Shown: positions 3,145-19,289 of the stretch, in pieces
Layout: each line of letters opens with the position of its first letter
Numbering within the stretch: position 1 is the stretch's first letter
NCBI GenBank assembly: GCA_016281815.1
Contig: JAEEJK010000045.1
Coordinates: 1-64,000, forward strand
Source: Prevotella sp.
GTDB lineage: Bacteria; Bacteroidota; Bacteroidia; Bacteroidales; Bacteroidaceae
DNA: 64,000 nt
Reading direction: 5' to 3'
Notes under the pieces: generated by a model
The model's database searches: none
Told to the model about the DNA's origin: nothing
What the model saw: only the letters and a program-made list of their open reading frames with translations
Translations under genes and position numbers: made by a program

Positions 3145-4554
3145 CTACTTCAGCATCGTAGGAATGCGTTCTCCGCTTTCCAGGGCTTTTATTTGTGCCT
3201 GCGTGTCGTTGCCCACAGGTCTTGAGGTGAAGTCAGGAGTGTTGTAGGAATACAGCGACTGGGTGTAGAACTGCTTGGGGTCGCGCTGTGGCAGCATGAA
3301 GGGCTTGGTGGCTCTCCCGTCATGTCCTATGGAAGAGAGGTAGATACGGGAGTAACGCCCATCATCACGCCGGCTGGTAAACAGGAACCACTGACTGTCG
3401 CTGCTCCAGTTGTGGAAACTATCCGCCTGGCTGCTGTTGACAGTGTCGAGGGAACGGGACAGACCGGTCTTTAGGTCCAGAAGCCACAAGTCGCTTTCTG
3501 GATGCCAAATGGTGAAATAGCCATAGTCGGCAAGAGTGTACATCAGAAAGCGTCCGTCATAGGAAGGACGGGGCCAACTCACGCTTTTCCCTTCTGAGGG
3601 TGCATTGACAAGCGTATCCACTTTTTGCCCGATATGCCCTGTGGCTGGGTCGAAACTCACACGGCAGAGACTGTAGCGCTCCTTGTCGTAGTCGTTGGGG
3701 TAAACCTGACGGCGGGCGGTGGTGAAATACAGCCATTTGCCGTCGGGGGAGAAGGCAGGGCAGTTTTCTGCCCAGTATTTTTTCATGATAAGGGTGTCAT
3801 TGACAATCTGATGGGTCTCGGTGTCGTAGACAAATACGTCTGATGACGAGTCATACACCTCCACATTGTTCTCCTTCTTGATGTGGAACATCTGTGAGGT
3901 CTTGTTGGTGGAGAAAGCGCAGTAGCGTCCGCCAGGATGCCAATAGTGATAAACCATGGTGTCTTCGTCGGTATCTTGGTCTAGGAGTGACTTTTCTTCA
4001 AAGGTGCTCAACTCCCGCTCATATAAGCCCATTGGGCTGTCCTTGTCTTGACCAGATGTGATGTGGCGATAGGTGATGCCCCAGTCAGACAAGGCTGTTT
4101 TAGAGACATGGATACAGAAGTCGCGGTAACGTTTCCATTTTCCGTCACGTTTCGCACAGACAGTTACATTGAGCTGTCCGCCACGATTCTGTTTCACCAT
4201 GGCATGCCATATCTCTGTGTCGAAGTCGGTGCAGGCACCTTTGGAATGAAGCGTTCCGCCCCAGGCACCGTTCACTTCCACATCGATGGCTGTCACGCTG
4301 TCATCTGCCATTGCGAAATTGAGTGGTGCGATGCCGACAGGGATGGTAACCTCGACGTAGTCGGGATAGATGGCAGGCAACTCGTTCACCACCTCTGCTT
4401 TCTGTGGTCCAGAGGAACAGGCTGCCAACAGGCAGATGCACAGCAACAAACTAAAGAAAAAGACCGTCTGGGGCCATTGCCCTTTACGCAGGAGTAAGTT
4501 ATACTCTTGCGCTTTTTGTGTCTCGTTGGCTGCAGATAAACGGTCGGTCATCAT
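3145..4554 (-). CDS. PD40/TolB-like beta-propeller lipoprotein without the CxxCH block
   Basis: A third paralogue of the lipoproteins at 6245 and 9364. A lipobox (LLAAC, Cys46) follows a hydrophobic stretch; the ~28 residues before it are unusually many, so a TTG start inside the Leu run near residue 20 is possible. It shares the diagnostic N-terminal block (IYPDYVEVTIPVGIAPLNF) and the propeller repeats (SPDGKWLYF, RPSYDGRFLMYTLADYG, NWSSDSQWFLFTSRRDDGRYSR). Where its paralogues carry CVNCH/CINCH plus about 45 more residues, this protein runs straight from FEEKSLLDQ into the VYHYWHPGGRY blade, with an acidic DTDEDTM at the junction. It therefore lacks the putative haem site. It has its own promoter, sharing an operator with susC. 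Confidence 0.85.
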   Translation of the reverse strand: MMTDRLSAANETQKAQEYNLLLRKGQWPQTVFFFSLLLCICLLAACSSGPQKAEVVNELPAIYPDYVEVTIPVGIAPLNFAMADDSVTAIDVEVNGAWGGTLHSKGACTDFDTEIWHAMVKQNRGGQLNVTVCAKRDGKWKRYRDFCIHVSKTALSDWGITYRHITSGQDKDSPMGLYERELSTFEEKSLLDQDTDEDTMVYHYWHPGGRYCAFSTNKTSQMFHIKKENNVEVYDSSSDVFVYDTETHQIVNDTLIMKKYWAENCPAFSPDGKWLYFTTARRQVYPNDYDKERYSLCRVSFDPATGHIGQKVDTLVNAPSEGKSVSWPRPSYDGRFLMYTLADYGYFTIWHPESDLWLLDLKTGLSRSLDTVNSSQADSFHNWSSDSQWFLFTSRRDDGRYSRIYLSSIGHDGRATKPFMLPQRDPKQFYTQSLYSYNTPDFTSRPVGNDTQAQIKALESGERIPTMLK

Positions 4555-4715: not shown

Positions 4716-4812
4716 CACAAAGATAATTTTATTTGGTGATGTTTTGATTATTTGTGTTTTCTTTTTTTTTAGATGATTGTTTTGCAAAACAACATGATAC
4801 ATTTGCAAAAAC
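4716..4812 (-). promoter_or_regulatory. promoter with TTGTTT-N4-AAACAA operator, twin of the susC promoter
   Basis: On the minus strand a TATCTTTGTGC -7 box ends at 4725 (TA at 4724-4725). Upstream lies the perfect 16-bp palindrome TTGTTTTGCAAAACAA (4777-4792), next to a run of nine T/A and an ATGATACATTT block. The palindrome centre is 59.5 bp from the TA of the -7 box, the same distance as in the susC promoter at 18863-18958. Ungapped hand alignment of 4762-4810 with 18908-18956 gives 43 of 49 identical bases. This accounts for most of the 471-bp gap upstream of the PD40 gene; no regulator gene is nearby. Confidence 0.75.
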
Positions 4813-4960
4813 ATAACGTTTTTTGCCAAATTCATATCACAAAGCAGATTCTTTGTGCATATCAAAACAAAAACAATGGAAAAAAACAACAAAAACATAA
4901 TCAATCCACCTCAAAATGCAACAGAAATATCCAGTATCCCCTTCCATTGAAGTGGTAACC

Positions 4961-5025: not shown

Positions 5026-6222
5026 CTATAGCACGAACTCGGCTGTGACTCCCCACTTCATCATATTACCTTTGCCTATCACAGACTTGTAACAGTCGCC
5101 ATGCAGGCGGGTGACGTGCTTGCCAACTGCCATTTGCACTCCTGCACCAAGATAGAGACCGAAATGGGCTGTGCTTTCCCAATCCATATCTAAAATTTTC
5201 TTGTTCTGGTAGATGCGGGTTTCATGATTTCCAAAATGATACACATAAAAACCGCCACCACGAACAAAAGGTACAATGCTCCCTTGCCCAAAGCACTTCA
5301 CTACACCCATGTGGCAAGAAATACGTCCTTTCTCATAGGTAGTGTGTGATGGCTCGTGCCCCCCGCGAACCATGGTGTCGTGCTCAAATTTTGCTTTTGG
5401 AGAGAAGGTGAGACCTATCTCCGCACTGCCGCCTTTCATCGTTCGTTCAATATCTATCTCTGTGGCAAAACCCAATTCAAATGCACCACCGTGGTAGGTC
5501 TCGTCCGGCAGATTTTGATTGATTGTTCTTTCATGGGAATAGTATGCATAACCTGCGAATACCTTGAAATGTGTTTTTGCCTTGTCGGATTCCTCCTTGT
5601 ACTCATACACCATACAGTTGCTGCCATCAGTACAAACATCATTGTGATAGTCGCGAACAATCTTGACCAGTTTCTTTCTCGACATCTCTTTCTCCTTATC
5701 CAAATCGTCAATGGCTTTCCTTGAGTCCTTCAGTAGAATCTTCACTTTTCCGTATTGTTCCCTCTGCTCCACTAGTTGGTCCTTTGCTTCATGAAGAGTT
5801 GATGACGATATTATTGACTTGTTGGTAAATTGGGCCATCTCACCATCTTCACGTTCAAAGAAAAAGTATTCATTATACTTGTCTGCTACACAGTACAGGT
5901 TCATTTTGCCTTGAACCATAAACTCTGCAAAGTATAATTGTGGGTCGCCATTGACGTTAAGTCGTCGAGTGACAAAAAACTTTCCATTGTGGTCAAACCT
6001 AAAGCATTCTATATCACCTGGTTTGTAGGTCTTGCTCTCGCTTTCTCCTTGGGCCTGGAAAACACATTTTTTTGACAGTATCTCGTTGGTGCGGAAGTCG
6101 AGAATACCTCTGACTGTGTCACCTGTATTGGTAATGATATATCCTGGCTTGGGGTTTGTCTGAGCCATAGAGAGCGCTACGCAAAAAAATAGCGAATAAA
6201 GAATAATGAATGATTTTCTCAT
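5026..6222 (-). CDS. secreted protein with C-terminal beta-barrel-like region, unknown function
   Basis: The real start is the ATG at 6222 (MRKSFIILYSLFFCVALSMAQ, a clear signal peptide); the ORF-track extension to 6471 runs into the upstream gene. An N-terminal domain begins GYIITNTGDTVRGILDF, a pattern seen in many uncharacterised Bacteroidetes surface proteins. A charged helical stretch follows (residues ~150-190, EAKDQLVEQREQYGKVK...), then alternating amphipathic strands ending in WGVTAEFVL, as in small outer-membrane barrels. It starts 22 bp after the PD40 gene at 6245, so it is the last gene of the susC operon. No enzyme motif seen. Confidence 0.75.
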   Translation of the reverse strand: MRKSFIILYSLFFCVALSMAQTNPKPGYIITNTGDTVRGILDFRTNEILSKKCVFQAQGESESKTYKPGDIECFRFDHNGKFFVTRRLNVNGDPQLYFAEFMVQGKMNLYCVADKYNEYFFFEREDGEMAQFTNKSIISSSTLHEAKDQLVEQREQYGKVKILLKDSRKAIDDLDKEKEMSRKKLVKIVRDYHNDVCTDGSNCMVYEYKEESDKAKTHFKVFAGYAYYSHERTINQNLPDETYHGGAFELGFATEIDIERTMKGGSAEIGLTFSPKAKFEHDTMVRGGHEPSHTTYEKGRISCHMGVVKCFGQGSIVPFVRGGGFYVYHFGNHETRIYQNKKILDMDWESTAHFGLYLGAGVQMAVGKHVTRLHGDCYKSVIGKGNMMKWGVTAEFVL

Positions 6223-6244
6223 ACTATTTATCTTATTGTTCAAT

Positions 6245-7714
6245 TTATTGGCGTACGCCAAAGTCCTTTCGGTATTCATTATTGATGAGTTGGCTGGCCT
6301 TGTCTCCATCGAAATGAGTCGGGCCAATGATGAAATCGGGTACATTGAAGGAAAAGAAACGTCCGCGATAAAAACGCCGCGGATTTCGCTGTGGCAGCAT
6401 AAAGGCCTTGCTGACTCCCCCCTTGGCATCAATATGACAGAAATAGGGCCGTGTGAACAGACCGTCATCACGACGGGAACTGAATACGAGCCAACGTGAG
6501 TTGGTGCTCCAGTTGTGGAACGATTCTGTGTCTTCTGAGTTGGCTCCAGTCATCAGGCAGCTTTCTCCTGTGGAGAGGTCGAGCAGATAGAGGTCGGCCT
6601 CATGGTGCCAGATGCTGAACTGTCCGTAGTCGGAGAGTGTGTAGCAAAGGAAACGTCCGTCGTAGGAGGGGCGGGGGAAGGACACCGACTTGTGCAGGGC
6701 CTCTGCGTCGACAATGATTTCTATTTGGTTGCCAAAACTGCCTGTGGTGGGGTCGAAATCGATGCGGCAGAGATGATAGCGGATGGAGTCGAGTTGATGA
6801 CTGCCCGCAGGTAGGGCGGGGGCTGCACAGAAATAGAGCGAACGGCCATCGGCTGAGAATACGGGATAGGTCTCATAGATGGAGTCTTGCTTGAGCAAGG
6901 GCGAAAGCAACAATTCATTCTTGTCAATGTCATAAACTTGGAGGTCGGAGGCTTCATCAAAGACCTCGACACGGTTGCGGTCGGCACTATGGAACAACTG
7001 ACTCGTGGTATTGGTAGAATAAGCAATATAGCGGCCTGAAGGATGCCAGTAGGGATAGACACAAAAACCAAGTGTCTGATCGGTCTTGGTGTTGTAGGCG
7101 GTGATAGGACCATCGTTCTGACGCAGTAGGGTGGCACCATGTGGACCTCGGATATGCAGGCTCATGTCGGCAGGGTTGCCGCGGTTGAAACTGTGGCAGT
7201 TGACGCAGCCTTCAAACTGTGTGTTCTCAATCAACGCACGCTCATCAAACGAGGAGAGGTCGCGCTCGTAGATGCCCATCTTGCTCCACACCTCGTAACC
7301 TGGTTCGATAAGACGGTAGCAGATACCATAGTCGATGCTGTCAGGGCTGACATAAATCGGGAAAGGGCGGTAGGTGTGCCAACCATCGTCATATTTGGCA
7401 GAAACGGTAACACTTAGTGAGTCTCCACAGTTCTGACTGAGCAGTGCATGCCAGTCATCAATGTCGAAGTCAGTTGATTCTTCGCCTTGACCGTGCAGGT
7501 TGTGTCCATGGCTGTCTGTAATGACGGCATCAATGCACAATGCCGCTTCATCTGCCATGCAAAAGTTGAGAGGGGCAATATTCACGGGTATGGAGACCCC
7601 AAGGTAATCGGGATAGATAAGAGGCTGAGCGTTCTCCTGTCTTGCATTGCTGACATTCTCTGTGCAAGCAGAGAGAAAAAGAAGCGAGGCCAGCATGTAT
7701 AAAATCTTTTTCAT
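6245..7714 (-). CDS. PD40 beta-propeller lipoprotein with one CxxCH haem-type motif
   Basis: Lipobox LFLSAC puts the lipidated Cys at 17. The conserved IYPDYLGVSIPVNIAPLNF block (~34-51) is followed by a CVNCH motif at residues 170-174, then WD40-like/PD40 propeller blades (YPYWHPSGRYIAYSTN, SADGRSLYF, RPSYDGRFLCYTLSDYG, NWSTNSRWLVFSSRRDDG). CxxCH is the attachment site for c-type haem in exported proteins; axial ligation and actual haem loading are not shown. The start ATG overlaps the stop of the upstream membrane-protein gene by four bases (ATGA), so translation is probably coupled. Paralogues are at 9364 (with CxxCH) and 3145 (without). Function unknown. Confidence 0.88.
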   Translation of the reverse strand: MKKILYMLASLLFLSACTENVSNARQENAQPLIYPDYLGVSIPVNIAPLNFCMADEAALCIDAVITDSHGHNLHGQGEESTDFDIDDWHALLSQNCGDSLSVTVSAKYDDGWHTYRPFPIYVSPDSIDYGICYRLIEPGYEVWSKMGIYERDLSSFDERALIENTQFEGCVNCHSFNRGNPADMSLHIRGPHGATLLRQNDGPITAYNTKTDQTLGFCVYPYWHPSGRYIAYSTNTTSQLFHSADRNRVEVFDEASDLQVYDIDKNELLLSPLLKQDSIYETYPVFSADGRSLYFCAAPALPAGSHQLDSIRYHLCRIDFDPTTGSFGNQIEIIVDAEALHKSVSFPRPSYDGRFLCYTLSDYGQFSIWHHEADLYLLDLSTGESCLMTGANSEDTESFHNWSTNSRWLVFSSRRDDGLFTRPYFCHIDAKGGVSKAFMLPQRNPRRFYRGRFFSFNVPDFIIGPTHFDGDKASQLINNEYRKDFGVRQ

Positions 7715-9354
7715 CGCTTATAGGGAGTGAAGTCATGTAGTAATTTGAGATAGCTTTCACGGTCGCCCGTCAGCAGATAATATGCCAGTAGATATTGATA
7801 GGCCAGATAGTTGTCTGTATTGCTGAAGAAGAGGCTTTCGAGCATCTCAGGTGTCACATGGTCACTGAAGTAAAAGTCTTCCTCGTAGGCCGACTGGCGC
7901 AGGCGTCCGTATTCGGGATGCTTGGCGATGGCCTCTTCATTCCCCAATAGCGGCAGGGTCTCATTGGCCCATTCTTTATAAAAGAGGGTTTTCTGCAGAG
8001 CCGTGAGATATTTGCGGGCCACTTCGTAACTGCCGAGAATCAGATTGGTCTGTGCCAGTCGCTTGTAGCAGCGGGTACTCTTCTGGAAGTCAAGAATCGC
8101 TTCCTGAGCCTCGAAGACCGTTCGTTGAGCGACATATATCATACCTAACTGATAGAATACCTCGGCTGTAGGCAGAGGACTGGTCGCGTCGCGCTCGACA
8201 TCGGGCAGAAGACCGGAGATGCCGTTCTGATGATAGTCGAACAATTGGTCGGTGAGCATGCCGTGCATGGCCAAAGCAAGATTTTGCACCGTGACACCGA
8301 TTTGGTTGTTGGGCTTTTCAGTGCTGATGGTTTCAAGTATGCGGTTCCATTGCTGGTAGCGTGCCATGAAGTCATATTTCATCACCTTCTCGGCTTTGAA
8401 ATTGCTGTTTTTCCATACAAAGCCACCCATAACCACAGCCACCAGGAGAAAGATTGAAAATTGAAAATTGAAAATTGAAAATTGAAGATTCTTGCCATGG
8501 CGAGCGTCCTTGGGGGCAGTGCGGGAAGTTGCGTTCGAACTTGGTCGCTTTGCTTGCTGAGGACGATGGAAGGCACGGACAATAAGGGTGAGGATGAACA
8601 CTGACAGCGTCGCCGACCAAAGCAGAATGGATATTTCTGTTGGGTAGCGATGGTAATGTATGCCGAACCACAGTTTGCTGGCTGGTACTGGGAGATAGAA
8701 TGACAGCAAGACGGGCATGAGGACCAAAAGGACAAATATGCCATAATACCATGCCTCACTCTGTTTCCCTTCCTTGGAAGATGGGAGGGTGGGGGAGGAG
8801 TCTTTAAGGTGTGGAACCTGCAGGAGGAAAAACAGCAGACAGACAGGACCCACCAAAAAATAAAGCACTGGAATAGCAACAAAAATCAGAACGCGCCGCA
8901 GCCATCCGCGTGGCATCGCGTCGAAAGCCCAGGCTGCGAGAAGCGTGAGCAAGACAGCCCAGACACCACCCAGCAGCGCATTCTCGTCGAGCAGGAAGAG
9001 CCAAAGCAGAAACGATGGCACAAAACTCAGACCAAAGAGCCATCCCTTATTCGGCTCTGCCGCTTGGTTCGCCCAAGATTTGGCCATCCTGAGTGTCAGA
9101 AGTTGTATTACTGAGAGCAGCACCGCAATAATGAGAGCCCCCACCCAGGCAAAAAGGAAAAACTGTGTGCAGAATCGTCCCAGCAGGTCGGCTATGCCGC
9201 CTGGCAGGCTGACAATCTCCCACACATAGGTGCAGTCGAAGAGGAAAAGTTGATATTGCTCCTGATAATGCAGGTGATGCGGATAGGCCAATCCGAAAAA
9301 AAGGAGAACCGCCACACCGAAAAGGAGCGTGCATAAAGGACGTAAATACTTCAC
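7711..9354 (-). CDS. polytopic membrane protein with C-terminal TPR-like domain (DUF6057-like)
   Basis: About eight hydrophobic helices fill residues 1-310, followed by a soluble helical C-terminal half with repeat-like pairs (AEVFYQLGMIYVAQRTVFEAQEA..., SYEVARKYLTAL). A conserved-looking first loop reads YPHHLHYQEQYQLF. Layout and length match the protein at 10933, so the two are paralogues; from memory they resemble the family annotated DUF6057, but this was not checked. Start codon is GTG. The last membrane segment is encoded partly by a heptanucleotide tandem repeat (8454-8488), giving a seven-residue protein repeat (QFSIFNF). Encoded between the two CxxCH-PD40 lipoprotein genes, 9 bp after the first and overlapping the second by 4 bp. 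Confidence 0.82.
   Translation of the reverse strand: MKYLRPLCTLLFGVAVLLFFGLAYPHHLHYQEQYQLFLFDCTYVWEIVSLPGGIADLLGRFCTQFFLFAWVGALIIAVLLSVIQLLTLRMAKSWANQAAEPNKGWLFGLSFVPSFLLWLFLLDENALLGGVWAVLLTLLAAWAFDAMPRGWLRRVLIFVAIPVLYFLVGPVCLLFFLLQVPHLKDSSPTLPSSKEGKQSEAWYYGIFVLLVLMPVLLSFYLPVPASKLWFGIHYHRYPTEISILLWSATLSVFILTLIVRAFHRPQQAKRPSSNATSRTAPKDARHGKNLQFSIFNFQFSIFLLVAVVMGGFVWKNSNFKAEKVMKYDFMARYQQWNRILETISTEKPNNQIGVTVQNLALAMHGMLTDQLFDYHQNGISGLLPDVERDATSPLPTAEVFYQLGMIYVAQRTVFEAQEAILDFQKSTRCYKRLAQTNLILGSYEVARKYLTALQKTLFYKEWANETLPLLGNEEAIAKHPEYGRLRQSAYEEDFYFSDHVTPEMLESLFFSNTDNYLAYQYLLAYYLLTGDRESYLKLLHDFTPYKR
8454..8488 (-). repeat. heptanucleotide tandem repeat inside a coding sequence
   Basis: Five tandem 7-bp units (four TTGAAAA, one TTGAAGA on the plus strand) lie within the membrane-protein gene. 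Seven is not a multiple of three, so gain or loss of one unit shifts the frame; the other frames end soon after. The same heptamer occurs at 60692-60761 and near 22954 and 23170. Confidence 0.85.
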
Positions 9355-9363
9355 TTTAACATA

Positions 9364-10902
9364 TTATTTATCGAAGACTTTACTGAATTCGTCTACACTG
9401 ATTTTGACAGGTTCGACCATGAACTCCGGACGGTTATAACTCTTAAGCAGGCTGATATGCAGTTCGGGGTCTTCCTGTGGCAAAAGGAAGGCCTTTCCTA
9501 CTTTCCCATTGTTGAAATAGGCAAAATAGACACGGCTGTAGTTGTCATCATCACGACGGCTGGCTAACATAATCCAATGTCCGTTGCTCGACCAAGAGGG
9601 GTAGCTGTCAGAATAGCCTTCGCTGTTGAGGAGGGTGAGGTCGATGGGCGAAGTGGTTTCTTCGTTGAGTGCAATGCCCGTATATTGTTCCAACGGGATA
9701 CATACTATGTCGGCATCATGGTGCCTGCTATGGAAACAGCCATACTGACCCAGGGCAAACAACAGATAACGTCCATCGGGACTGATGCGGGGCAAGGTAA
9801 CACTTTTGTCGTGCGAGGTGGCATCATACACAAACTCCTCTTCACCGAATTTGTGAGATGACAGGTCAAACGAACGGCGATAGAGATTGTATTGCACTTT
9901 CGGGTAGGTCGTTCTGATATCCTTGTCGCACATCTCTTCAGGAAGCGGGGCTGACTTGCCATAATACAGGTATTTGCCATCAGGCGACCAAGTGGGATAT
10001 ATCTCCAAGAGGGTTGAGTCGTTCGAGACGACGCTTACAGAGTCTTTCTCCACATCGTAAAGAATCAGGTCGCTGGCCAAATCATACACCTCAATCTTAT
10101 TGGGATTCAATGTGTGGAAAGCTTGACGTGTCAGATTGGTGGAGAAGGCTATCAGTTTGGCGGTGGGGTGCCAGGATGGATAAACACCTGAGGAAATGGT
10201 GTAGTCGCGCTTCAGATTGACTCTCGAGACCTTACCATCGTTCACAATAACAGTACCGGCATTGGAGAGACGCACATGGAAAAGCATGTTGTCGGTTTTG
10301 TAGTTCTGATAACTGTGGCAGTTGATGCACTGGCCTTTTTCCCTGTCAATACTGGTAATCTCGTTGTTGAAGATCTGTGTCTCTTCAAACGTGGTGAGGT
10401 TGCGCTGGGCTATTTCCATGTAGGTCCATGCAACATACGAGGGTTCGATGAGGCGATACGACAGATATTCGTCGATGGGCTGTTCGGCTACATGTATTTC
10501 AAATGGGCTGTACGACAGCCATTGCTTTTCCCTTTGGCCAGCGACCGATGGTTCGCCCTTTTTCTGCCCCCAGACCTCTACCTTGATGCTCTTGCCCTTC
10601 GAGGCATCGAGCATAGCATGCCATTCTGACTCGGGTATCTGCACCTTCACGCCATCGCCGTATGTCTGTTGCCGACCGTCAGGGGTGGTGAGGCGTGCCA
10701 CGCACGCTTCGTACTGGTCAGCAGGGAGCATGAAGTTGAGTGGCGCAATATTGCAAGGCACGGTGACATCGCAATAGTCTGGGAAGATGGCAGGCAGGCA
10801 CTTGGTTTCTTTGGATGAAGAAGGCACATCAGGGTGATGCACACACGATGACAACAGCAACGTCATGACAAAGGCCAGAAAATATGATAAAATCCTATTC
10901 AT
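9364..10902 (-). CDS. PD40 beta-propeller lipoprotein with one CxxCH haem-type motif
   Basis: Lipobox LLLSSC (Cys20). It shares IFPDYCDVTVPCNIAPLNF with its paralogues and has CINCH at residues 192-196 preceding the propeller blades (YPSWHPTAKLIAFSTN, WSPDGKYLYY, RISPDGRYLLFALGQYG, SWSSNGHWIMLASRRDDDNYSR). It is therefore predicted to sit lipid-anchored in an outer or periplasmic membrane face with a single covalent haem. It has extra free cysteines (35, 44, 50) in the N-terminal region. The gene starts 30 bp after the membrane-protein gene at 10933 and ends 9 bp before the one at 7711, giving an alternating membrane-lipoprotein-membrane-lipoprotein order. No catalytic site is recognised. Confidence 0.88.
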   Translation of the reverse strand: MNRILSYFLAFVMTLLLSSCVHHPDVPSSSKETKCLPAIFPDYCDVTVPCNIAPLNFMLPADQYEACVARLTTPDGRQQTYGDGVKVQIPESEWHAMLDASKGKSIKVEVWGQKKGEPSVAGQREKQWLSYSPFEIHVAEQPIDEYLSYRLIEPSYVAWTYMEIAQRNLTTFEETQIFNNEITSIDREKGQCINCHSYQNYKTDNMLFHVRLSNAGTVIVNDGKVSRVNLKRDYTISSGVYPSWHPTAKLIAFSTNLTRQAFHTLNPNKIEVYDLASDLILYDVEKDSVSVVSNDSTLLEIYPTWSPDGKYLYYGKSAPLPEEMCDKDIRTTYPKVQYNLYRRSFDLSSHKFGEEEFVYDATSHDKSVTLPRISPDGRYLLFALGQYGCFHSRHHDADIVCIPLEQYTGIALNEETTSPIDLTLLNSEGYSDSYPSWSSNGHWIMLASRRDDDNYSRVYFAYFNNGKVGKAFLLPQEDPELHISLLKSYNRPEFMVEPVKISVDEFSKVFDK

Positions 10903-10932
10903 AATCCACTTCTAATTTTCAATTTAAATTCC

Positions 10933-12744
10933 TCACGAATGAGTTTCGTTTCCAATCTTACCGGTAACATTGATAGGCTTTCTTCCGAAAATGTTATACC
11001 ACCAGTAGGTGTCTCCATATTCTTCACGCATTTCCTCACCTATCTTTTCAATGGTCATGCCAGGCTTTGCAAAATTCTCAAGAGTTGACCAGAATTGTTT
11101 GTAACGCTCGAAGACGGACTGCTCGACTGGGAGCATCATCCGCTTTTCTTCAGGAGCCTTGTCTATAAAAAGGATATAAGCCTCCATGGCATGCAAAGGA
11201 AACTCTTCGTTCAAGTGCAACTGCACATAGTTGTGCAGTGAAGCCCAGAAACGGCGTGAGTCGCATCGCAGCATGGAATAGAACAATGCCTGTTCCGAAG
11301 CCACTTTACTATCGGATTCGTACCAGAGGCTGATGCCATTGACTATATAACTGTCGCTGTTCTCTACGCCAGTTAGTTCATCGGGGAAGCACTTTTGCAG
11401 TTCCTTTATCTTTTCTGTGACAGGTGCCGGTTGCCAATTGCCGTAAAATGGATGATGATGCAGTAGGGTGGTATAGCGTTCTACCAGTTTCTTGTCTCCG
11501 ACAGCCAGGGCACAGCGGGCAAGCATTTTTAAATAGAAGGGTGAAAAGCCAGCTTGGATGGCATTTTCGAAATTCAGGCGGATGGCTTCATTCATCATGC
11601 CGTAGTTGTAATATACCAAAGGCGATGCAATGTCCAAAAGGGTGACGTGGAGGGTGTCGGGGTTGTTGATGTCGACAGCATCGTTGCACAGTTTGAATGA
11701 ACGGTCGAGTAGGCCGCCTTCATTCATCAGGGCAATATTCTTCAGAAATACCATCGTGCTAGTCGGCTTCTTGTTGGCTTCTGCCACACGAAGGACTCCC
11801 TGCCAGTTGTCATTTGAGGCAAGGCGCACCATGCGCATTTCTTCTATGTAGTTGCGGTCGTAGTACATGAACGACAAAGTAAAGATGATGCCTGCAGCAG
11901 CACAAACCACCGGGACAGCCAATCTCCCAAACAACCACCCCCTCAAACGACCAAACAACAAACTTCCCCAACGACCAAACAGCGGTATGAGCAAAGAGGC
12001 AGCCCCAAGCGCCCAGAACGGGATGGAAAGATGTGGACAAACGTCACTTGGTGTTTCGAAGCGAGGAAAACCTGCCATCATGACATCGTCGGATTTCAGA
12101 TTCGAATAGAACTGGGTATGCCAGATGCTGGCGGCAAAGATGAGCAGGACTATGCCCAAAAACTCTCGCCAAGTGGGTTTGTCTGTAAGTATTAGACATA
12201 AGACGAAAAGCAAAGCAAACCATCCAAGCAATGGATAGATGCAAACACCCATCAGATACCAGACAAGATGCCTTTTGCGTGGGGTGCTGCGGGCTGCCCA
12301 CAAGAGCAGCAGCATGGCAAGGTAGCCTACCGACTGCGAGAACCAGTATCCTCTGATGGTGGAGATATAAATCCAATAACCCAAATCCACAACCGATGTG
12401 AGCAGACAGGCAATAGGCAAGAGCATCAGCGCGGAGGAATTTCCCTTCAACCGGAATGCCTTGATTCCCGCATAGAATATGAGGATCCAAATAACCATCA
12501 TCACGCTTGCACCAAAAGACGGTCTATAGAATAACTGCGTGAGCCAGGCTCCCAGATACTGCATCAGTCCAAAGGGTTTTGATAGGAGCCTGTGGAAGAA
12601 GGGGGCTCCGAAAATGAATTCGGAACGGTCGTGTGCCGTATAGAAAACCTCTAAATTGATGTATAATATATATACGACAAATACTATGAAAGCCAACAGA
12701 CTTGCATAGAGTACGGCATCAGATAGTTTGCTTTTGTTTATCAT
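10933..12744 (-). CDS. polytopic membrane protein with C-terminal TPR-like domain (DUF6057-like), paralogue 2
   Basis: The ATG at 12744 (MINKSKLSDAVLYAS) is preferred to the ORF-track TTG at 12771, which lies in the loop of a hairpin. Roughly nine to ten hydrophobic helices fill residues 1-300; then a soluble helical region (WQGVLRVAEANKKP..., GMMNEAIRLNFENAIQ, KKLVERYTTLLHHHPFYGNW) resembles TPR repeats. Same plan as the protein at 7711. Just before the last membrane helix there is a repetitive stretch (LFGRWGSLLFGRLRGWLFGR) encoded by repetitive ccaaac-rich DNA at 11924-11983, the same relative place as the heptamer array in the paralogue. Separated from the upstream lipoprotein gene by a terminator-like hairpin. 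Confidence 0.82.
   Translation of the reverse strand: MINKSKLSDAVLYASLLAFIVFVVYILYINLEVFYTAHDRSEFIFGAPFFHRLLSKPFGLMQYLGAWLTQLFYRPSFGASVMMVIWILIFYAGIKAFRLKGNSSALMLLPIACLLTSVVDLGYWIYISTIRGYWFSQSVGYLAMLLLLWAARSTPRKRHLVWYLMGVCIYPLLGWFALLFVLCLILTDKPTWREFLGIVLLIFAASIWHTQFYSNLKSDDVMMAGFPRFETPSDVCPHLSIPFWALGAASLLIPLFGRWGSLLFGRLRGWLFGRLAVPVVCAAAGIIFTLSFMYYDRNYIEEMRMVRLASNDNWQGVLRVAEANKKPTSTMVFLKNIALMNEGGLLDRSFKLCNDAVDINNPDTLHVTLLDIASPLVYYNYGMMNEAIRLNFENAIQAGFSPFYLKMLARCALAVGDKKLVERYTTLLHHHPFYGNWQPAPVTEKIKELQKCFPDELTGVENSDSYIVNGISLWYESDSKVASEQALFYSMLRCDSRRFWASLHNYVQLHLNEEFPLHAMEAYILFIDKAPEEKRMMLPVEQSVFERYKQFWSTLENFAKPGMTIEKIGEEMREEYGDTYWWYNIFGRKPINVTGKIGNETHS
11924..11983 (-). repeat. degenerate ccaaac-type tandem repeat inside a coding sequence
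   Basis: Repeated ccaaacaac, caaacgaccaaac and aacgaccaaac words encode a Leu-Phe-Gly-Arg-rich repeat. The array is degenerate, so the unit length (about 8-10 bp) is not exact. It stays in frame. Confidence 0.5.
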
Positions 12745-12756
12745 TTTTTTTGCTAT

Positions 12757-12786
12757 AAAAGGCTGACTCAATCAAATGAGTCAGCC
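12757..12786 (-). terminator. intra-operon hairpin, terminator or attenuator
   Basis: A perfect 10-bp stem (GGCTGACTCA/TGAGTCAGCC, 12761-12770 with 12777-12786) with a 6-base loop is followed on the minus strand by TTTT. It lies between the SusCD-lipoprotein block and the first membrane-protein gene. The short T run suggests partial rather than complete termination, giving more SusCD than membrane protein; this is inference. Confidence 0.65.
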
Positions 12787-12814
12787 TATTATTAATTATA
12801 CTGTCAAGGAATGA

Positions 12815-13546
12815 TTATTCCTCATAGTAAACAGCATTGAGAGTCATTGATCCACTGTACAGCATGAGGTCAAGGTCACGACCTTCACCACCCTTAGCAC
12901 ACTGGTCTGCCATATCCTGAGTAATCTGAAGTTCGTTCAAACCAGACACCCACTTCACATGATCGTAATAGGTAGCACTCCACCAACCATTCATGACTTT
13001 CAAATCGAAATCTGCACTGACATCAGATACGTCAAAGATCAGAGTCTTCAGACCGAAGTAAACATCATCGGGAATAGTGGGCAGGTGAGCACCTTCAGTT
13101 GAGCTGAAACGCATAGCTGCTGCATCCCAAGCACCTGGCTGGAATGGTACATCCTCTGGCTTGTCAGGACCACCATAAATATAGTACTTTACAAGTGGAT
13201 CTGTGATTTCCTGACATGATACAGGGTATTCAGCAACAAGTTGAGTTCCATCAGGACAAAGAGCAGTCAGGGTAACGACATGGTCACCAAGTTTCATCTT
13301 CTTCCATGCGAAATTACCAATCAATTCCTTGCCAGCGAAATCCCACTTTGCATTGACTGGAGCAGATGTCTGACAGGTAATAACGTTACCATTCTGACCA
13401 CTGGGAGACTTGTCTACAGTGACTGATGTCTTCGCCTTCAGCTCGTCAAGCGTGATGTGGCCACCATTGCTGATATCCTCATGGATAGGATCGCATGCGG
13501 CAAAAGCGCAAACTGCGGCAACAAGCAAAAATAATATCTTTTTCAT
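12815..13546 (-). CDS. SusCD-associated surface lipoprotein, unknown ligand
   Basis: Signal peptide and lipobox (AVCAFAAC, Cys18). The N-terminal half resembles the PKD/Ig-like folds found in accessory PUL lipoproteins (KWDFAGKELIGNFAWKKMKLGDHVVTL); the C-terminal half (FGLKTLIFDVSDVSADFDLKV, ending AVYYEE) looks like a jelly-roll binding domain. It directly follows SusD (19 bp gap), the position of SusE/F-type proteins, so it probably binds ligand on the cell surface next to the SusCD complex. 243 aa. No catalytic motif. Confidence 0.75.
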   Translation of the reverse strand: MKKILFLLVAAVCAFAACDPIHEDISNGGHITLDELKAKTSVTVDKSPSGQNGNVITCQTSAPVNAKWDFAGKELIGNFAWKKMKLGDHVVTLTALCPDGTQLVAEYPVSCQEITDPLVKYYIYGGPDKPEDVPFQPGAWDAAAMRFSSTEGAHLPTIPDDVYFGLKTLIFDVSDVSADFDLKVMNGWWSATYYDHVKWVSGLNELQITQDMADQCAKGGEGRDLDLMLYSGSMTLNAVYYEE

Positions 13547-13565
13547 CTTGTTTACTTATATAATA

Positions 13566-15497
13566 TTAATACAGAACTTTATATGTGTACTCAGATGCAG
13601 AAGCTTTTTCATCCCATCCAGGGTTCTGCTGCATCTTATCAACCATCAGAGTAATCTGAGCCTGAGGCTTCGGCAAGAAACCGTTGGTGTCAGCATAACG
13701 TTTAGCCCAAGAACAAGTCATGTGCGCCATAGGAATTTTGGCACCCTTCTGACCATAGCATACGATCATTTTACCCTTCTGTGCTTCGAGAGCCTTTGCT
13801 GCGTATGAAGATTCGCCAGAGTCAATACCTGACCAACGACGCATGTCATTGAAACGAAGTCCCTCTAATGCAAACTCCCAACGACGCTCATCTTGAAGAG
13901 CCTTCAAAGAGTAAGAAGTTGTCAGAGGCACACCGGCACGAGCCTGAACCTGATTCATATATTGTACATCACCAGTAAGTTCAGAAAGCATCAACAGAAC
14001 GTCAGCATAACGCATCAGGTAGTAGTCCTCGAAGTGGTCACCCTGCTGTTTGTTGTCAAGTGAACTGGAGGAATATCCCTCGCACTTTGACCACCATGAA
14101 TCGTTGTCAGCAGCGCAAGCATCAAGGTTGACATCAGCGTACTTCTTGACAGCATAGCCTGACTCCTCATTGTCGTCCTTCTCGTAGGTATAGGCTTCGA
14201 GTTCATTATCGAGGTCAATCAGAGTGGCTTTCTTACGAAGGTCTGTATAACCACCACTTCTCTCAGCATCTGTCCAGTCATCCCAAATATTGCAGGAAGG
14301 AGTACCCTGACCCCAGCCCTGGTTGAATGGATAAGTCTTGTGACGACGACCATTGTCATTGGTAGCACCATTACGAAGACCCCAGAAGCAAGAGAGATAG
14401 TTGGAATACATACGCGGGTTGTTGTATGTTCCACCAATTGCCCACTTGGAGGCATTCATAAACTGAATCTGGAAAATCTCCTCAGTGTTGCCGTTACCCA
14501 TACCAGGCTGGTCGAAGCAGTTCTCACGCTTCATGTCTGCGATGAAATCGTATGCATGGGTGCCTTCAAGGTTGCCGGTACCATCTGCGTTATCATGTGC
14601 CTCATCCCAAAGTAGACTGTTGGAATACTGCCAAAGTGAACGGAAGTCTTCGCAGAGCTTGTAACCGCCTGTAGAAACGATGTCTTTCAAACCTTCAACG
14701 ACTTGTGCCTTTGAAAGAGTACCTCCTTGGCAGCCCTCCTGCTCTACAAGATTAATAGTAGCATCACCAGTAGAGAGATCTGCAACTTTCTTGTAGAAGC
14801 CAGCCCAGAACATCCATGCACGTGCAATAAATGCCTCGGCAGCATACTTGTCAGCATGACCTGAGCCATTGGCTCTCTCTGGCTTCATGAGATTCTTGGC
14901 AGAAACGAAGTCTGAAATAATCTGTGGGTAGATGAACTCCTCTGCACTAACCTGCTGTTGCATCTCATCGGTAATAACAGTAGAGGTAATCAGGGGGACA
15001 TCGCCGTACAACTGGCTGAGCCACATATAGTAGAGACCGCGCATGAAATAGCCCTCACCGAGGAGTTGGTTGCGCTGAGCCTTCTGGGCTTCAGTCCACT
15101 CCACATTGTCGATGGTTTCAATCTGGTTGTTGGCACGTGATATACCACCATAGAGAAGGATGAAGTCCTGCTCATACTGGTTGGCACTTGCTGTTGTGAA
15201 ATGATGCAGTGACTTAGCCACATTGTCCTGCAAACCGCCACTGCCGTAGCAGTCATCAGACATGAGCGACCACCAATAGAAAGGATTATTCAAGATACCA
15301 CTTTGATCTCCGCCACCCAGCGTATTCATAATACTGTAGGTGGCTGCATTCAATGCCTCTACATCTCCTGGCTTACCAGGGAATGTGGCTGCAGTCAACT
15401 CTGTCACACGTGGATCAGTGTCCAGCATGTCGTTACAGGATGTGAACAAAGTTACTGCAGACAAAACAGCCAACGATGATAAAATATATTTCTTCAT
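13566..15497 (-). CDS. SusD/RagB-like outer-membrane binding lipoprotein
   Basis: Lipobox LFTSC (Cys21) after MKKYILSSLAVLSAVT. The family pattern is clear: AATYSIMNTLGGGD, the NNQIETIDN/AQRNQLLGEGYFMRGLYY helical block, AEAFIARAWMFWAG, and the C-terminal LKALQDERRWEFALEGLRF motif followed by MRRWSG. At 643 aa it is longer than most (500-600 aa), with extra Asn/Gly-rich segment around residues 300-450. It lies 15 bp after SusC and is its lid. The ligand cannot be inferred; the absence of glycoside hydrolases in this operon argues against a simple polysaccharide PUL. Confidence 0.95.
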   Translation of the reverse strand: MKKYILSSLAVLSAVTLFTSCNDMLDTDPRVTELTAATFPGKPGDVEALNAATYSIMNTLGGGDQSGILNNPFYWWSLMSDDCYGSGGLQDNVAKSLHHFTTASANQYEQDFILLYGGISRANNQIETIDNVEWTEAQKAQRNQLLGEGYFMRGLYYMWLSQLYGDVPLITSTVITDEMQQQVSAEEFIYPQIISDFVSAKNLMKPERANGSGHADKYAAEAFIARAWMFWAGFYKKVADLSTGDATINLVEQEGCQGGTLSKAQVVEGLKDIVSTGGYKLCEDFRSLWQYSNSLLWDEAHDNADGTGNLEGTHAYDFIADMKRENCFDQPGMGNGNTEEIFQIQFMNASKWAIGGTYNNPRMYSNYLSCFWGLRNGATNDNGRRHKTYPFNQGWGQGTPSCNIWDDWTDAERSGGYTDLRKKATLIDLDNELEAYTYEKDDNEESGYAVKKYADVNLDACAADNDSWWSKCEGYSSSSLDNKQQGDHFEDYYLMRYADVLLMLSELTGDVQYMNQVQARAGVPLTTSYSLKALQDERRWEFALEGLRFNDMRRWSGIDSGESSYAAKALEAQKGKMIVCYGQKGAKIPMAHMTCSWAKRYADTNGFLPKPQAQITLMVDKMQQNPGWDEKASASEYTYKVLY

Positions 15498-15512
15498 AAC
15501 TTATTTGTCGAA

Positions 15513-18500
15513 TTAGAATTTAATACTTGCACCTACCAAATATGTACGAGATGGTGGGTAAAGACCCAGGTCGATACCAGATGCCCAACCATTACCACCT
15601 GCTGAGTTGCCTACCTCAGGATCGAGTCCGGTGTAACCGGTGAAGGTGTGAAGGTTCTGAGCCTGAACATAGAAACGAAGTTGCTGGAATGGGCAAGCCT
15701 TCCAGAGATGCTTGAAGTCGTAACCGAGTGTTACGGTCTTGATCTTGAAGTAGTCGGCATCCTCCATATAACGGTTAGATACCCAGTTGGTATTCTCGCT
15801 ACCAGTACTTGAAATACGTGGCTGAGTGTTTGAAGAACCTTCACCAACCCAACGATTCAGGATGGATGTGTCGTAGTTCTGATAAGGAGCGTCACTGAAC
15901 GAACGGTAAGAACGCATGATCTGCATACCGAATGCACCAGCACCGTTGACAGAGAAGTCAAGACCCTTCCATGAGAAGCCGAGGTTGACACCCAACATGA
16001 TATCTGGGTTGGGGTTACCAATCTCATGACGGTCACAAGTTTCACCTTCTGCATAGGTAAGCACACCATCACCATTCCAGTCGTCCCAGATGCAGTCACC
16101 AGGCTGTGCGTTATCAAGAACGGCCTTGCCGGCAGCACGTGCGGCGTCAATCTCTGCCTGGTTCTGCCAGATACCGCTGTAAGACATGCCGAAGAAGTAA
16201 CCGATGGGCTTGCCTTCCTCAGCGCGGTAGATGTACTCTGTACCCTGTGAGAGGACACCACTAGGACCATTGATATAGTGGTTGTCGTTGGCAATACGGG
16301 TAACCTTGTTCTTGTTGGTAGCAAAATTCACACCGAAGTTGTAACTGAAGTCTTTGTTGATTCTGTCGTTCCAAGTGAGAGCGATTTCAATACCGGTGTT
16401 CTCCACGTCACCACCATTGATGGCTGCAGGATTGGTACCATAGATGGCAAGCAGGTTGCCACTAATCAGCCAGTCCTTTGTGGTCTTCTTATACCAGTCG
16501 AAGTTCAAGCCCAAACGGCTTTTGAGGAAACGTGCATCGAAACCTAAGTCAAGTTGCTCGGAGGTCTCCCAAGTCAGGTCAGGATTAGGAACGATGTTGG
16601 CGTAAGCACCGGTGTTCGGAGTACCTGCAACAGAAGTAGCCATGTCAGAACCGAACTTGTAACCAGCGTCGCCAGCATCACCCGACAGGGCGATAGTAGC
16701 CAGATACTGATACTTAGAGATACGGTTGTTACCGTTCTGGCCCCAAGATGCGCGGAACTTCAAGAAGTCCATCCAGCTGTGTGTGCTCTCCATGAATGGC
16801 TCATTGCTAATCACCCAACCTGCAGATACAGATGGGAAGATACCCCAGCGCTTACCATCGGTGAAGATACTTGATCCATCATAACGCAAAGTTGCAGTAG
16901 CCATATAGGTCTCATTCCAGTCCCAACTTACACGGCCGAACCAAGAAGCGAGATACTCTTCGTCGTTAGGTGAGCCGGTGAGAGTGGCATCAGTAGCATT
17001 GACAAGTTTGATGTTCGACAGCCATGCTGAATCCCAACCCTTCAGTGTTGCGAGTTGGTCACCATAATTAACCTTGTTGGAACCACCCAGGTTTGTACTC
17101 CAGGCACTGCTCTGGAAACTCTGACCTACCATGGCACTGATCTTGTGACCTGAAATGATAGGAAGGTCGTAAGTAAGGGTGTTCTCAATAGACCATGAAG
17201 TATTCAACCAAGTACTCTGGCTAACGCTATAAACAGGTGATGTGGCATTTCCATAACCAGATGAACGTGGCTCACCATAGTTGCGATAGGCACCTGAACC
17301 CCAGTTGTAGTTGAACTGAGAACGGAACCTCAGACCTTTGATAGGCTGGATGACGAGGAATGCAGTAGCATTTGCATTGATGTTGCGGCTCTCTGCCTTA
17401 GAGTTGAAACCACCCTTAGCGAGGTTCTCCCATGGGTTGCTGAACAAAGAAGCGTTCCAACCCTGACCATATTTGACAGTACCATCAAAATCCTGATAAT
17501 AATAAATGTCACCATTGTCAGCGTACTGTGGCATAAGAGGGCAAGTCTGAAGCAAACTGTGGATATAACTCCAGTACATACCGTCCTCAGCCAGGTCGTG
17601 ACTCTTGTTATAGCCAATAGAGATGTTCTCACCGATTGTGATGGCATCGAAGTCCTTCACTCTCAAGAGAACGTGATCGCTGTTGACGCGGATGGTGTGG
17701 CGTTTGTAGTAAGAAGCCACATCGGCTCCCATGATACCTTCGTTGCCGGTATAGGTGTAGGACATAGCGAACTTGGAGCGGTCGGTACCACCAGTCAATG
17801 TCACAGAATGATTCTGCTGCACGGCATTCTTGTTTTCGAATGCAGCCCACCAGTCGGTGCCTTCCCAACCGTTTTTGACTTTGGTGAGGATGTCGGCAGG
17901 AACGTAGCCGGCCCAATCCATCTTCTGACCAGAAGTGTTGAAGGTGTACTCATCAATAATCGTCATGTACTGCTCAGCATTAAGAAGTTGTGGACGCTTG
18001 TAAGCGTTGGACCAACCCATGGCACCATTGTAGCTGAGTTCAATCTTGCCAGCCTTACCTTGCTTGGTAGTAACCAGGATCACACCGTTGGCAGCACGGG
18101 CACCATAGATGGCAGCCGATGCAGCATCCTTGAGGACGTCGATGCTCTCGATATCGTTCGGGTTGATGCCGTCAAGGTTGCCACCTGCAACACCGTCAAT
18201 CACATAAAGAGGTGCTGCATCGCCGGTGGTTCCGATACCACGGATGTAAACCTTGTAGCCCTTGCCCGGCTGAGTAGAACTCTGGGTGATCTGCACACCA
18301 GGAGTGCTTGACTGCATGGCTTCCAGTGCGTTGGTGGTGTTCAGTTTGGCGATGTCTTCACCCTTTACCTGAACGGTAGCACCGGTAACCAACTTCTTCT
18401 TCATCGTACCGTAACCAATGACCACCACGTCATTCAGCATGGCGTAGTCTTCTTTTAAGGTGACGGTGATGCTTGACTTTCCTGCCACTGACACCTTCTG

Positions 18501-18749
18501 GGGCTCATAACCCACATAGGTGATGGTGAGGGTGGCGTTGGAGGGAGCCTCTACGCTGAAGTTTCCATCAAAGTCGGTGATGGCACCGACACTGGATCCT
18601 TCCACTTTCACGGTCGCACCGATTACCGGGTCGCCCGCTTCATCTACAACTGTTCCCTTGACGACACTCTGAGCCATTGCTCCCAATGGGAACAAACAGA
18701 GCAGGAACAGAAATACTAACGGCTTTTGTAGTAATTTAAAATTCCACAT
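15513..18749 (-). CDS. SusC/RagA-family TonB-dependent outer-membrane transporter
   Basis: Signal peptide MWNFKLLQKPLVFLFLLCLFP...AMAQ, then a carboxypeptidase-regulatory-like domain (VVKGTVVDEAGDPVIGATV, ~28-105), the SusC plug signature (VIGYGTMKKKLVTGA, then LYVIDGVAGGNLDGINPNDI and SIDVLKDAASAAIYG) and a long barrel ending in GASIKF with a terminal Phe. 1078 aa is normal. It imports a ligand across the outer membrane using TonB/ExbBD energy. First gene of the operon that continues through SusD, a lipoprotein and the PD40/membrane-protein pairs. Its promoter carries the operator shared with the orphan PD40 gene at 3145. Confidence 0.96.
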   Translation of the reverse strand: MWNFKLLQKPLVFLFLLCLFPLGAMAQSVVKGTVVDEAGDPVIGATVKVEGSSVGAITDFDGNFSVEAPSNATLTITYVGYEPQKVSVAGKSSITVTLKEDYAMLNDVVVIGYGTMKKKLVTGATVQVKGEDIAKLNTTNALEAMQSSTPGVQITQSSTQPGKGYKVYIRGIGTTGDAAPLYVIDGVAGGNLDGINPNDIESIDVLKDAASAAIYGARAANGVILVTTKQGKAGKIELSYNGAMGWSNAYKRPQLLNAEQYMTIIDEYTFNTSGQKMDWAGYVPADILTKVKNGWEGTDWWAAFENKNAVQQNHSVTLTGGTDRSKFAMSYTYTGNEGIMGADVASYYKRHTIRVNSDHVLLRVKDFDAITIGENISIGYNKSHDLAEDGMYWSYIHSLLQTCPLMPQYADNGDIYYYQDFDGTVKYGQGWNASLFSNPWENLAKGGFNSKAESRNINANATAFLVIQPIKGLRFRSQFNYNWGSGAYRNYGEPRSSGYGNATSPVYSVSQSTWLNTSWSIENTLTYDLPIISGHKISAMVGQSFQSSAWSTNLGGSNKVNYGDQLATLKGWDSAWLSNIKLVNATDATLTGSPNDEEYLASWFGRVSWDWNETYMATATLRYDGSSIFTDGKRWGIFPSVSAGWVISNEPFMESTHSWMDFLKFRASWGQNGNNRISKYQYLATIALSGDAGDAGYKFGSDMATSVAGTPNTGAYANIVPNPDLTWETSEQLDLGFDARFLKSRLGLNFDWYKKTTKDWLISGNLLAIYGTNPAAINGGDVENTGIEIALTWNDRINKDFSYNFGVNFATNKNKVTRIANDNHYINGPSGVLSQGTEYIYRAEEGKPIGYFFGMSYSGIWQNQAEIDAARAAGKAVLDNAQPGDCIWDDWNGDGVLTYAEGETCDRHEIGNPNPDIMLGVNLGFSWKGLDFSVNGAGAFGMQIMRSYRSFSDAPYQNYDTSILNRWVGEGSSNTQPRISSTGSENTNWVSNRYMEDADYFKIKTVTLGYDFKHLWKACPFQQLRFYVQAQNLHTFTGYTGLDPEVGNSAGGNGWASGIDLGLYPPSRTYLVGASIKF

Positions 18750-18862: not shown

Positions 18863-18958
18863 GCAAAGTTAATTTATTTTAATGATGTGTCGATAGTTTA
18901 TGTGTCAGTTTTTTTTAGATGATTGTTTTTCGAAACAAAATGATACATTTTAAAAACA
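18863..18958 (-). promoter_or_regulatory. susC operon promoter with TTGTTT-N4-AAACAA operator
   Basis: On the minus strand TAACTTTGC (18863-18871) is a perfect -7 box, about 115 bp before the SusC ATG. The dyad TTGTTT-TTCG-AAACAA occupies 18923-18938, its centre 59.5 bp from the TA of the -7 box, and is flanked by an eight-T run and ATGATACATTT exactly as in the promoter at 4716-4812. No good -33 TTTG is seen, which fits an activator-dependent promoter. Confidence 0.78.
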
Positions 18959-19289
18959 CAAAACCATGAATTTTGGCAGAAAAACACGGATATATGGAGT
19001 AAAACGGCTTAGAAATTGCCCCAAGTAGTGGTTTCTTATTTGATTCTCTTAACAAAGTCTATGGCAGAAGAGCCTTTTTGATACGATTATGTTTCTTATA
19101 CTTTTAAATAAGGTGTAAAGAAAGTTATCCTGTATCACAGATATTATGATTTGTCACATTATAAAAGAATGAATGCAAAAGATTTTTATTCTTTGCTTTA
19201 TTTTTATTTATTTTGCAAAAGATCATCATTATGTTAATCAGACTGATAACCGAAACAATTGCTAACTAATTTTATCAAATTCATTCAAT
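18959..19289. other. gene-free AT-rich divergent region
   Basis: Lies between the susC promoter and the plus-strand GH43 gene. Near-matches to -7 boxes on the plus strand (ttattcTTTGC at about 19186, TATTTTGC at about 19208) could drive the GH43 gene, but both have wrong spacing by one base. No ORF or RNA seen. Confidence 0.5.

Follow-up and report, generated by a model that had tools for sequence, protein, structure and literature searches.

Two paralogous Prevotella promoters with a probable 21-bp tandem half-site operator of an AraC-type HTCS

Introduction

Two promoters in one stretch of Prevotella DNA carry the same short palindrome at the same distance from their -7 boxes, which raises the question of whether they answer to a common regulator and, if so, which bases that regulator reads. 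The stretch, here called the window, is 64 kb long (contig G000:C64) and belongs to a rumen-type Prevotella MAG that is 92% complete, the organism's own genome measuring 4.1 Mb. Throughout, G000 stands for this genome, other G numbers for genomes of relatives, L numbers for loci, and C numbers for contigs. One promoter precedes a susC operon and the other a gene for a PD40 beta-propeller protein (Table 1). The original prediction had taken the palindrome, TTGTTT-N4-AAACAA, as the operator. Using a comparison with 80 related loci, we arrive at a different answer: both promoters probably belong to one regulon under an AraC-type hybrid two-component system (HTCS), a membrane sensor-regulator probably encoded elsewhere in the genome, and the operator is likely to consist of TGTTACA-N6-AAAG half-sites in a 21-bp tandem arrangement.

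Genes behind the two promoters

The operon at 5026-18749, hereafter operon A, has the gene order SusC-SusD-lipoprotein-DUF6057-PD40(CXXCH)-DUF6057-PD40(CXXCH) and is widely conserved in rumen Prevotella, the order from susC to the second haem PD40 gene being kept in most of the 80 related loci. A search of one literature library found no paper naming DUF6057. The source genome holds a further paralogous susC-susD-DUF6057-PD40 operon at G000:C120:36000-48500 (L181), and DUF6057/PD40 pairs also occur on contigs C50 and C108.

The PD40 gene behind the second promoter had been described as an orphan without a haem motif. The first description is not borne out, as the gene shares the strand of the operon and is the second gene after the last PD40 gene in it. 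The second is correct and specific to the source lineage: relative to G437, the nearest relative, 47 residues that include CINCH are missing in frame from a protein that is otherwise highly similar, and CXXCH is kept in all 12 of the 12 PD40 homologues checked.

Table 1. Features of the window, with the candidate regulator gene in the last row
Feature	Position	Strand	Remarks
SusC/RagA TonB-linked outer-membrane protein	15513..18749	(-)	First gene of operon A
SusD	13566..15497	(-)	
Lipoprotein without Pfam family	12815..13546	(-)	Conserved in operon A
DUF6057 membrane protein 1	10933..12771	(-)	
PD40 protein	9364..10902	(-)	CINCH haem motif
DUF6057 membrane protein 2	7711..9354	(-)	
PD40 protein	6245..7714	(-)	CVNCH haem motif
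ORF between the CVNCH PD40 gene and the haem-less PD40 gene	5026-6471	(-)	
PD40 beta-propeller protein	3145..4554	(-)	CXXCH segment lost by 47-residue in-frame deletion
-7 box TATCTTTG	4718..4725	(-)	Promoter of PD40 gene 3145-4554
Originally predicted dyad TTGTTTTGCAAAACAA	4777..4792	(.)	Perfect 16-bp palindrome
Promoter block	4718..4816	(-)	80% identity to 18864-18961 (BLASTN)
Putative degenerate second half-site copy AGATGATTGTTTTGCAAAACA	4771..4791	(+)	Holds most of the dyad; below zero with relatives' matrix
Conserved half-site copy ACATGATACATTTGCAAAAAC	4792..4812	(+), reversed relative to gene	Core at -76; 20-mer 4793-4812 CATGATACATTTGCAAAAAC, 14.3 bits
-7 box TAACTTTG	18864..18871	(-)	susC promoter
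Originally predicted dyad, TTGTTTCGAAAAACAA on gene strand	18923..18938	(.)	
Promoter block	18864..18961	(-)	Paralogous to 4718-4816 (BLASTN)
Putative degenerate second half-site copy AGATGATTGTTTTTCGAAACA	18917..18937	(+)	
Conserved half-site copy AAATGATACATTTTAAAAACA	18938..18958	(+)	Core at -76; 20-mer 18939-18958 AATGATACATTTTAAAAACA, 14.3 bits
C62 HTCS, 1321 aa	G000:C62:49813-53775		Beside GH10 and esterase genes

Likeness of the two promoters

The Bacteroidetes -7 box, TAnnTTTG, is present in both promoters and does not set them apart from other promoters of this type. Much of what had been reported of the palindrome is confirmed: TTGTTT-N4-AAACAA is exact in both, with 59.5 bp between its centre and the T of the -7 box; both share a T run and ATGATACATTT; and the 49-bp block that holds these elements is identical at 42/49 positions in our frame (43/49 in the earlier count). 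A motif search of the whole 4.1-Mb genome with the 22-bp form TTGTTTN4AAACAATCATCT, allowing at most one mismatch, found only the two window sites; at three mismatches, there were 10 matches as against five for a reversed control. Within the 64-kb window, the dyad with at most one mismatch occurs twice, with 0.25 expected.

The interpretation placed on these facts does not stand. The sequence between operator and -7 box had been called much less similar, from which it was argued that selection had kept the operator alone. The stretch that separates the -7 box from the T run is in fact 65-70% identical in the two promoters, compared with a shuffled mean of ~41-48% (P <= 0.003), and identity drops to chance (7/26) only outside the block, upstream of AAATGTATCAT. 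BLASTN aligns the pair at 80% identity over 98-99 bp, ungapped, with E ~1e-17. Because the likeness spans the whole promoter, the two are paralogous promoters rather than carriers of an isolated shared operator, and the argument from selection fails for the same reason. A DNA search for close copies of either promoter in 299-398 genomes of the genus returned only the source organism's own pair and short chance matches, and hence no very close relative that has both promoters; in G437, the contig begins inside the PD40 gene.

A directional half-site in relatives

At the position equivalent to the dyad, 44 of 44 relatives have at least five mismatches in the 12 specified bases, and an exact dyad upstream of susC was found in none of the 80 related loci. 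On these two grounds, we rejected the dyad as a conserved element, and its claim to be the operator is not supported.

What relatives conserve is a repeat. In a lag spectrum of 58 relatives' susC promoters, covering lags 8-44, only lag 21 stands out, with a mean best match of 12.05/21 as against 9.81 in shuffles and 10 promoters at 15/21 or better where 0.35 were expected. The conserved unit is a directional half-site, TGTTACA-N6-AAAG, repeated every 21 bp. Upstream of unselected TAnnTTTG boxes, its core is found at -37 (22), -58 (16), -76/-77 (13), and -98 (10), and nearly nowhere else. Of 915 such boxes in the related loci, 34 have the core at -37 and 26 have it at -58; the window's own 37 boxes have it at neither position. 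Copies at -37 and -58 point toward the gene, those at -77 and -98 away from it, and the members of each pair are 21 bp apart. Scored with a matrix, forward sites are present at -37 in 33 of 44 relatives, at -58 in 30, and at both in 24, while reversed sites are present at -77 in 10 and at -98 in 13; for the orientations, the matrix and these counts, the box was chosen with the core known, whereas in the lag spectrum and the count over unselected boxes the choice was blind to the core.

A search of the source genome for the tandem half-site pattern gave six matches, with none for the reversed control. When the surroundings of these six were fetched, the matrix gave tandem support at two only, and only the match on C27 lies near a susC.

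The window operator as a diverged form

To score the window, we used a matrix built from relatives alone, the two window promoters being left out. In both promoters, the best match is reversed, with its core at -76 and a score of 14.3 bits; these are the top two matches in 64 kb, and ~0.8% of shuffled promoters reach such a score. This strong half-site is ATGATACATTT, which the original prediction had treated as flank and which abuts the dyad. The dyad region itself, as AGATGATTGTTTTGCAAAACA in one promoter and AGATGATTGTTTTTCGAAACA in the other, matches the copy 21 bp away on the same strand at 15/21 positions in each case, a self-likeness at lag 21 that is modestly significant (P 0.02 and 0.005 for two promoters that are not independent). 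By its sequence, then, the dyad region reads as a degenerate second half-site copy, 21 bp from the strong one. This second copy, reversed at -55, scores below zero with the relatives' matrix, and its position is used by 0 of 44 relatives; the canonical forward sites at -58 and -37 also score below zero in the window promoters. The window operator thus appears to be a diverged form of the relatives' array, and what the dyad does in it is the point of which we are least sure.

Could the dyad instead serve as operator for a dimeric regulator of a conventional type (LacI, Crp/Fnr or MarR-like), placed over an old HTCS site in the source lineage? Its exactness in both promoters at identical spacing, the perfect 16-bp palindrome in one of them, and the restriction of the 22-bp form to these two sites in 4.1 Mb would all fit such an origin, and the missing forward sites at -58 and -37 imply that control could have been rewired. 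We nevertheless regard this explanation as unlikely, as the dyad is conserved in no relative, either at this position or anywhere upstream of a related susC, its presence in two paralogous promoters amounts to a single observation, and a half-site that is conserved directly abuts it.

Operons A and B as one probable regulon

In relatives, the counterpart of the last PD40 gene closes a second operon, operon B (susC', susD', DUF6057, PD40), whose susC' is ~31% identical to susC. Operon B stands directly behind operon A in G248 and G399, and in G273 only its DUF6057-PD40 end is left there. In both of these genomes, G248 and G399, the A promoter and the B promoter each have a forward half-site at -58 (17 to 22 bits) and another at -37 (11 to 12 bits). 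Since these A and B promoters bear the same half-sites, independently of the window pair, they support the proposal that PD40 gene 3145-4554 and the susC operon fall into one shared regulon. The PD40 promoter in the window probably descends from the promoter of the second, paralogous operon, and the two window promoters are probably paralogous members of one regulon.

An alternative source of the likeness is a recent copying of one promoter onto the other, by duplication or gene conversion, in which case the operator would be alike without selection. An ungapped identity of 80% over 98 bp, the inter-site sequence included, is what such an event would leave. The identity nonetheless breaks off abruptly, at the distal half-site on one side and at the -7 box on the other, the A and B promoters of relatives keep their half-site positions despite the ~31% identity of their SusC proteins, and many relatives hold the half-site array under otherwise different sequence. 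We therefore consider a recent copy quite improbable and retain the reading of an operator shared by paralogous promoters of an HTCS regulon.

Candidate regulator

The relatives point to a family of regulators. In L073, the end of an HTCS gene (HisKA, HATPase_c, receiver, HTH_18) lies immediately ahead of the susC promoter, and in L089 and L093 an HTCS follows operon A; the latter is a single frame of 1362 aa in L093 and is split in L089 (L089:11470-15641), where a Reg_prop part of 309 aa is separate from the remaining 1025 aa. No HTCS was found among the genes examined in the window. The source genome has two HTCSs of the L073/L089 group, on C20 and C62, with related HTH domains. The C62 HTCS is a single chain in which the Reg_prop/Y_Y_Y sensor, HisKA, HATPase_c, Response_reg, and HTH_18 are all present; it is 66% identical to the L089 HTCS (82% in the HTH) and 45% identical to that of L073, to which the C20 HTCS (60-64%) is the closest homologue.

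Several lines of evidence connect the C62 family to the operons. Orthologues occur in 131 of 299 genomes of the genus, and a PD40 homologue accompanies 117 of these 131 as compared with 68 of the 168 genomes that have no orthologue (odds ratio 12, P 5e-19, with phylogeny and PUL number per genome as confounders). In eight genomes, where ~1.5 were expected, an orthologue lies within 20 kb of a listed PD40 gene, and in G236, G234, G402, G347, G360, and G398 the distance is 33 bp to 11 kb. The C62 HTCS gene itself is preceded by a half-site of 18.4 bits, and half-sites of at least 13 bits precede 11 of 19 C62 orthologues (0.39 expected), a count that covers this HTCS family alone. The DNA before the C62 HTCS gene (L223:3700-3790) also contains a near-perfect inverted repeat, TTTGCGAAATGTAACAA-N5-TTGTTGCATTTCGCAAA, with a similar one in G437, in which two TGTTACA-N6-AAAG half-sites stand face to face in another arrangement.

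With orthologues that adjoin operons of this family, tend to occur in the same genomes, and often have the half-site in their promoters, the C62 HTCS is the best candidate, and the data suggest that the cognate HTCS is unlinked to the operon in this genome. The original prediction of one dimeric regulator encoded outside the window thereby stands in its form, although not in its choice of the dyad as operator.

The C20 HTCS (G000:C20:4137-8018, beside its own susC and GH115) might be the regulator in place of C62, or both might bind. The HTCS that immediately precedes susC in L073 has C20 as its closest homologue, the promoter of C20's own susC has TGAAACA at -58 and TGAAACG at -37, and in G209 a homologue lies 0.3 kb before a DUF6057-PD40 pair. 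Against this, C20 adjoins a divergent susC operon of its own, the orthologue of the HTCS beside operon A in L089 and L093 is C62 and not C20, and it is the C62 HTCS that has a strong half-site in its own promoter. We judge a role for C20 somewhat unlikely and keep C62 as the preferred candidate.

Proposed mechanism and known systems

The operator pattern, its positions, its sharing between promoters, and the linkage of the HTCS family to both pattern and operon can be read from the genomes compared. From these, we infer that an HTCS dimer would bind at the half-sites and that this dimer may be the C62 HTCS, and we propose the following sequence of events:

(i) The operator would consist of half-sites that recur in tandem every 21 bp, or two turns, each at a set distance from the -7 box. 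Its window form would comprise the strong reversed half-site ATGATACATTT(N)AAAAA with its core at -76 and, 21 bp away, the dyad as its degenerate second copy.

(ii) The periplasmic sensor of the C62 HTCS would detect a glycan ligand; the HTCS dimer would thereby be activated, its receiver domain phosphorylated, and its AraC domain freed.

(iii) Upstream of the -7 box, the AraC-type domains would occupy neighbouring half-sites spaced by two helical turns and so activate the two promoters together from about -55 to -85.

Such an operator has precedent. In Bacteroides, predicted HTCS operators are direct repeats whose sites lie 21 bp apart on average, a layout interpreted as dimers on one DNA face (PMC3878776), and EMSA has demonstrated the binding of HTCS receiver-HTH proteins to susCD promoters (PMC11253607). 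As in Bacteroides thetaiotaomicron (Ravcheev et al. 2013, PMC3878776), we find a two-site direct repeat with ~21-bp spacing upstream of susC-type operons, a probable regulon that spans several operons, and an AraC-type DNA-binding domain in the candidate regulator. In terms of the features used there to recognise HTCS operators, the 21-bp direct repeat is seen in relatives and, more weakly, in the window, and the pattern is upheld by phylogenetic footprinting. The differences are that the HTCSs analysed in B. thetaiotaomicron usually lie beside their operons whereas here the candidate HTCS is unlinked, that several relatives here have a second, inverted tandem pair at -77/-98, and that the copies in the window have degenerated, a single strong half-site being left. 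Unlike SusR-like regulators (PMC3878776), the genes linked to operon A in relatives are HTCSs. HTCS control of shared promoter DNA is thus, as the comparison suggests, a further instance of an established type of gene regulation.

A bolder reading is that the full operator has four half-sites, direct at -58/-37 and inverted at -98/-77, and that, in this lineage, two promoters underwent parallel shifts of register, to -76/-55. The HTCS regulon would then serve an as yet undescribed envelope system, SusCD-DUF6057-PD40 (haem-motif); we put this forward tentatively, as possible but doubtful.

Taken at the strength given here, the analysis names a candidate regulator, and an operator open to testing, for the conserved, undescribed SusC/SusD/DUF6057/PD40(CXXCH) operon family that is common in rumen Prevotella. 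It also illustrates how a dyad picked out by eye can turn out to be part of a directional HTCS repeat, and the choice of bases to mutate changes accordingly.
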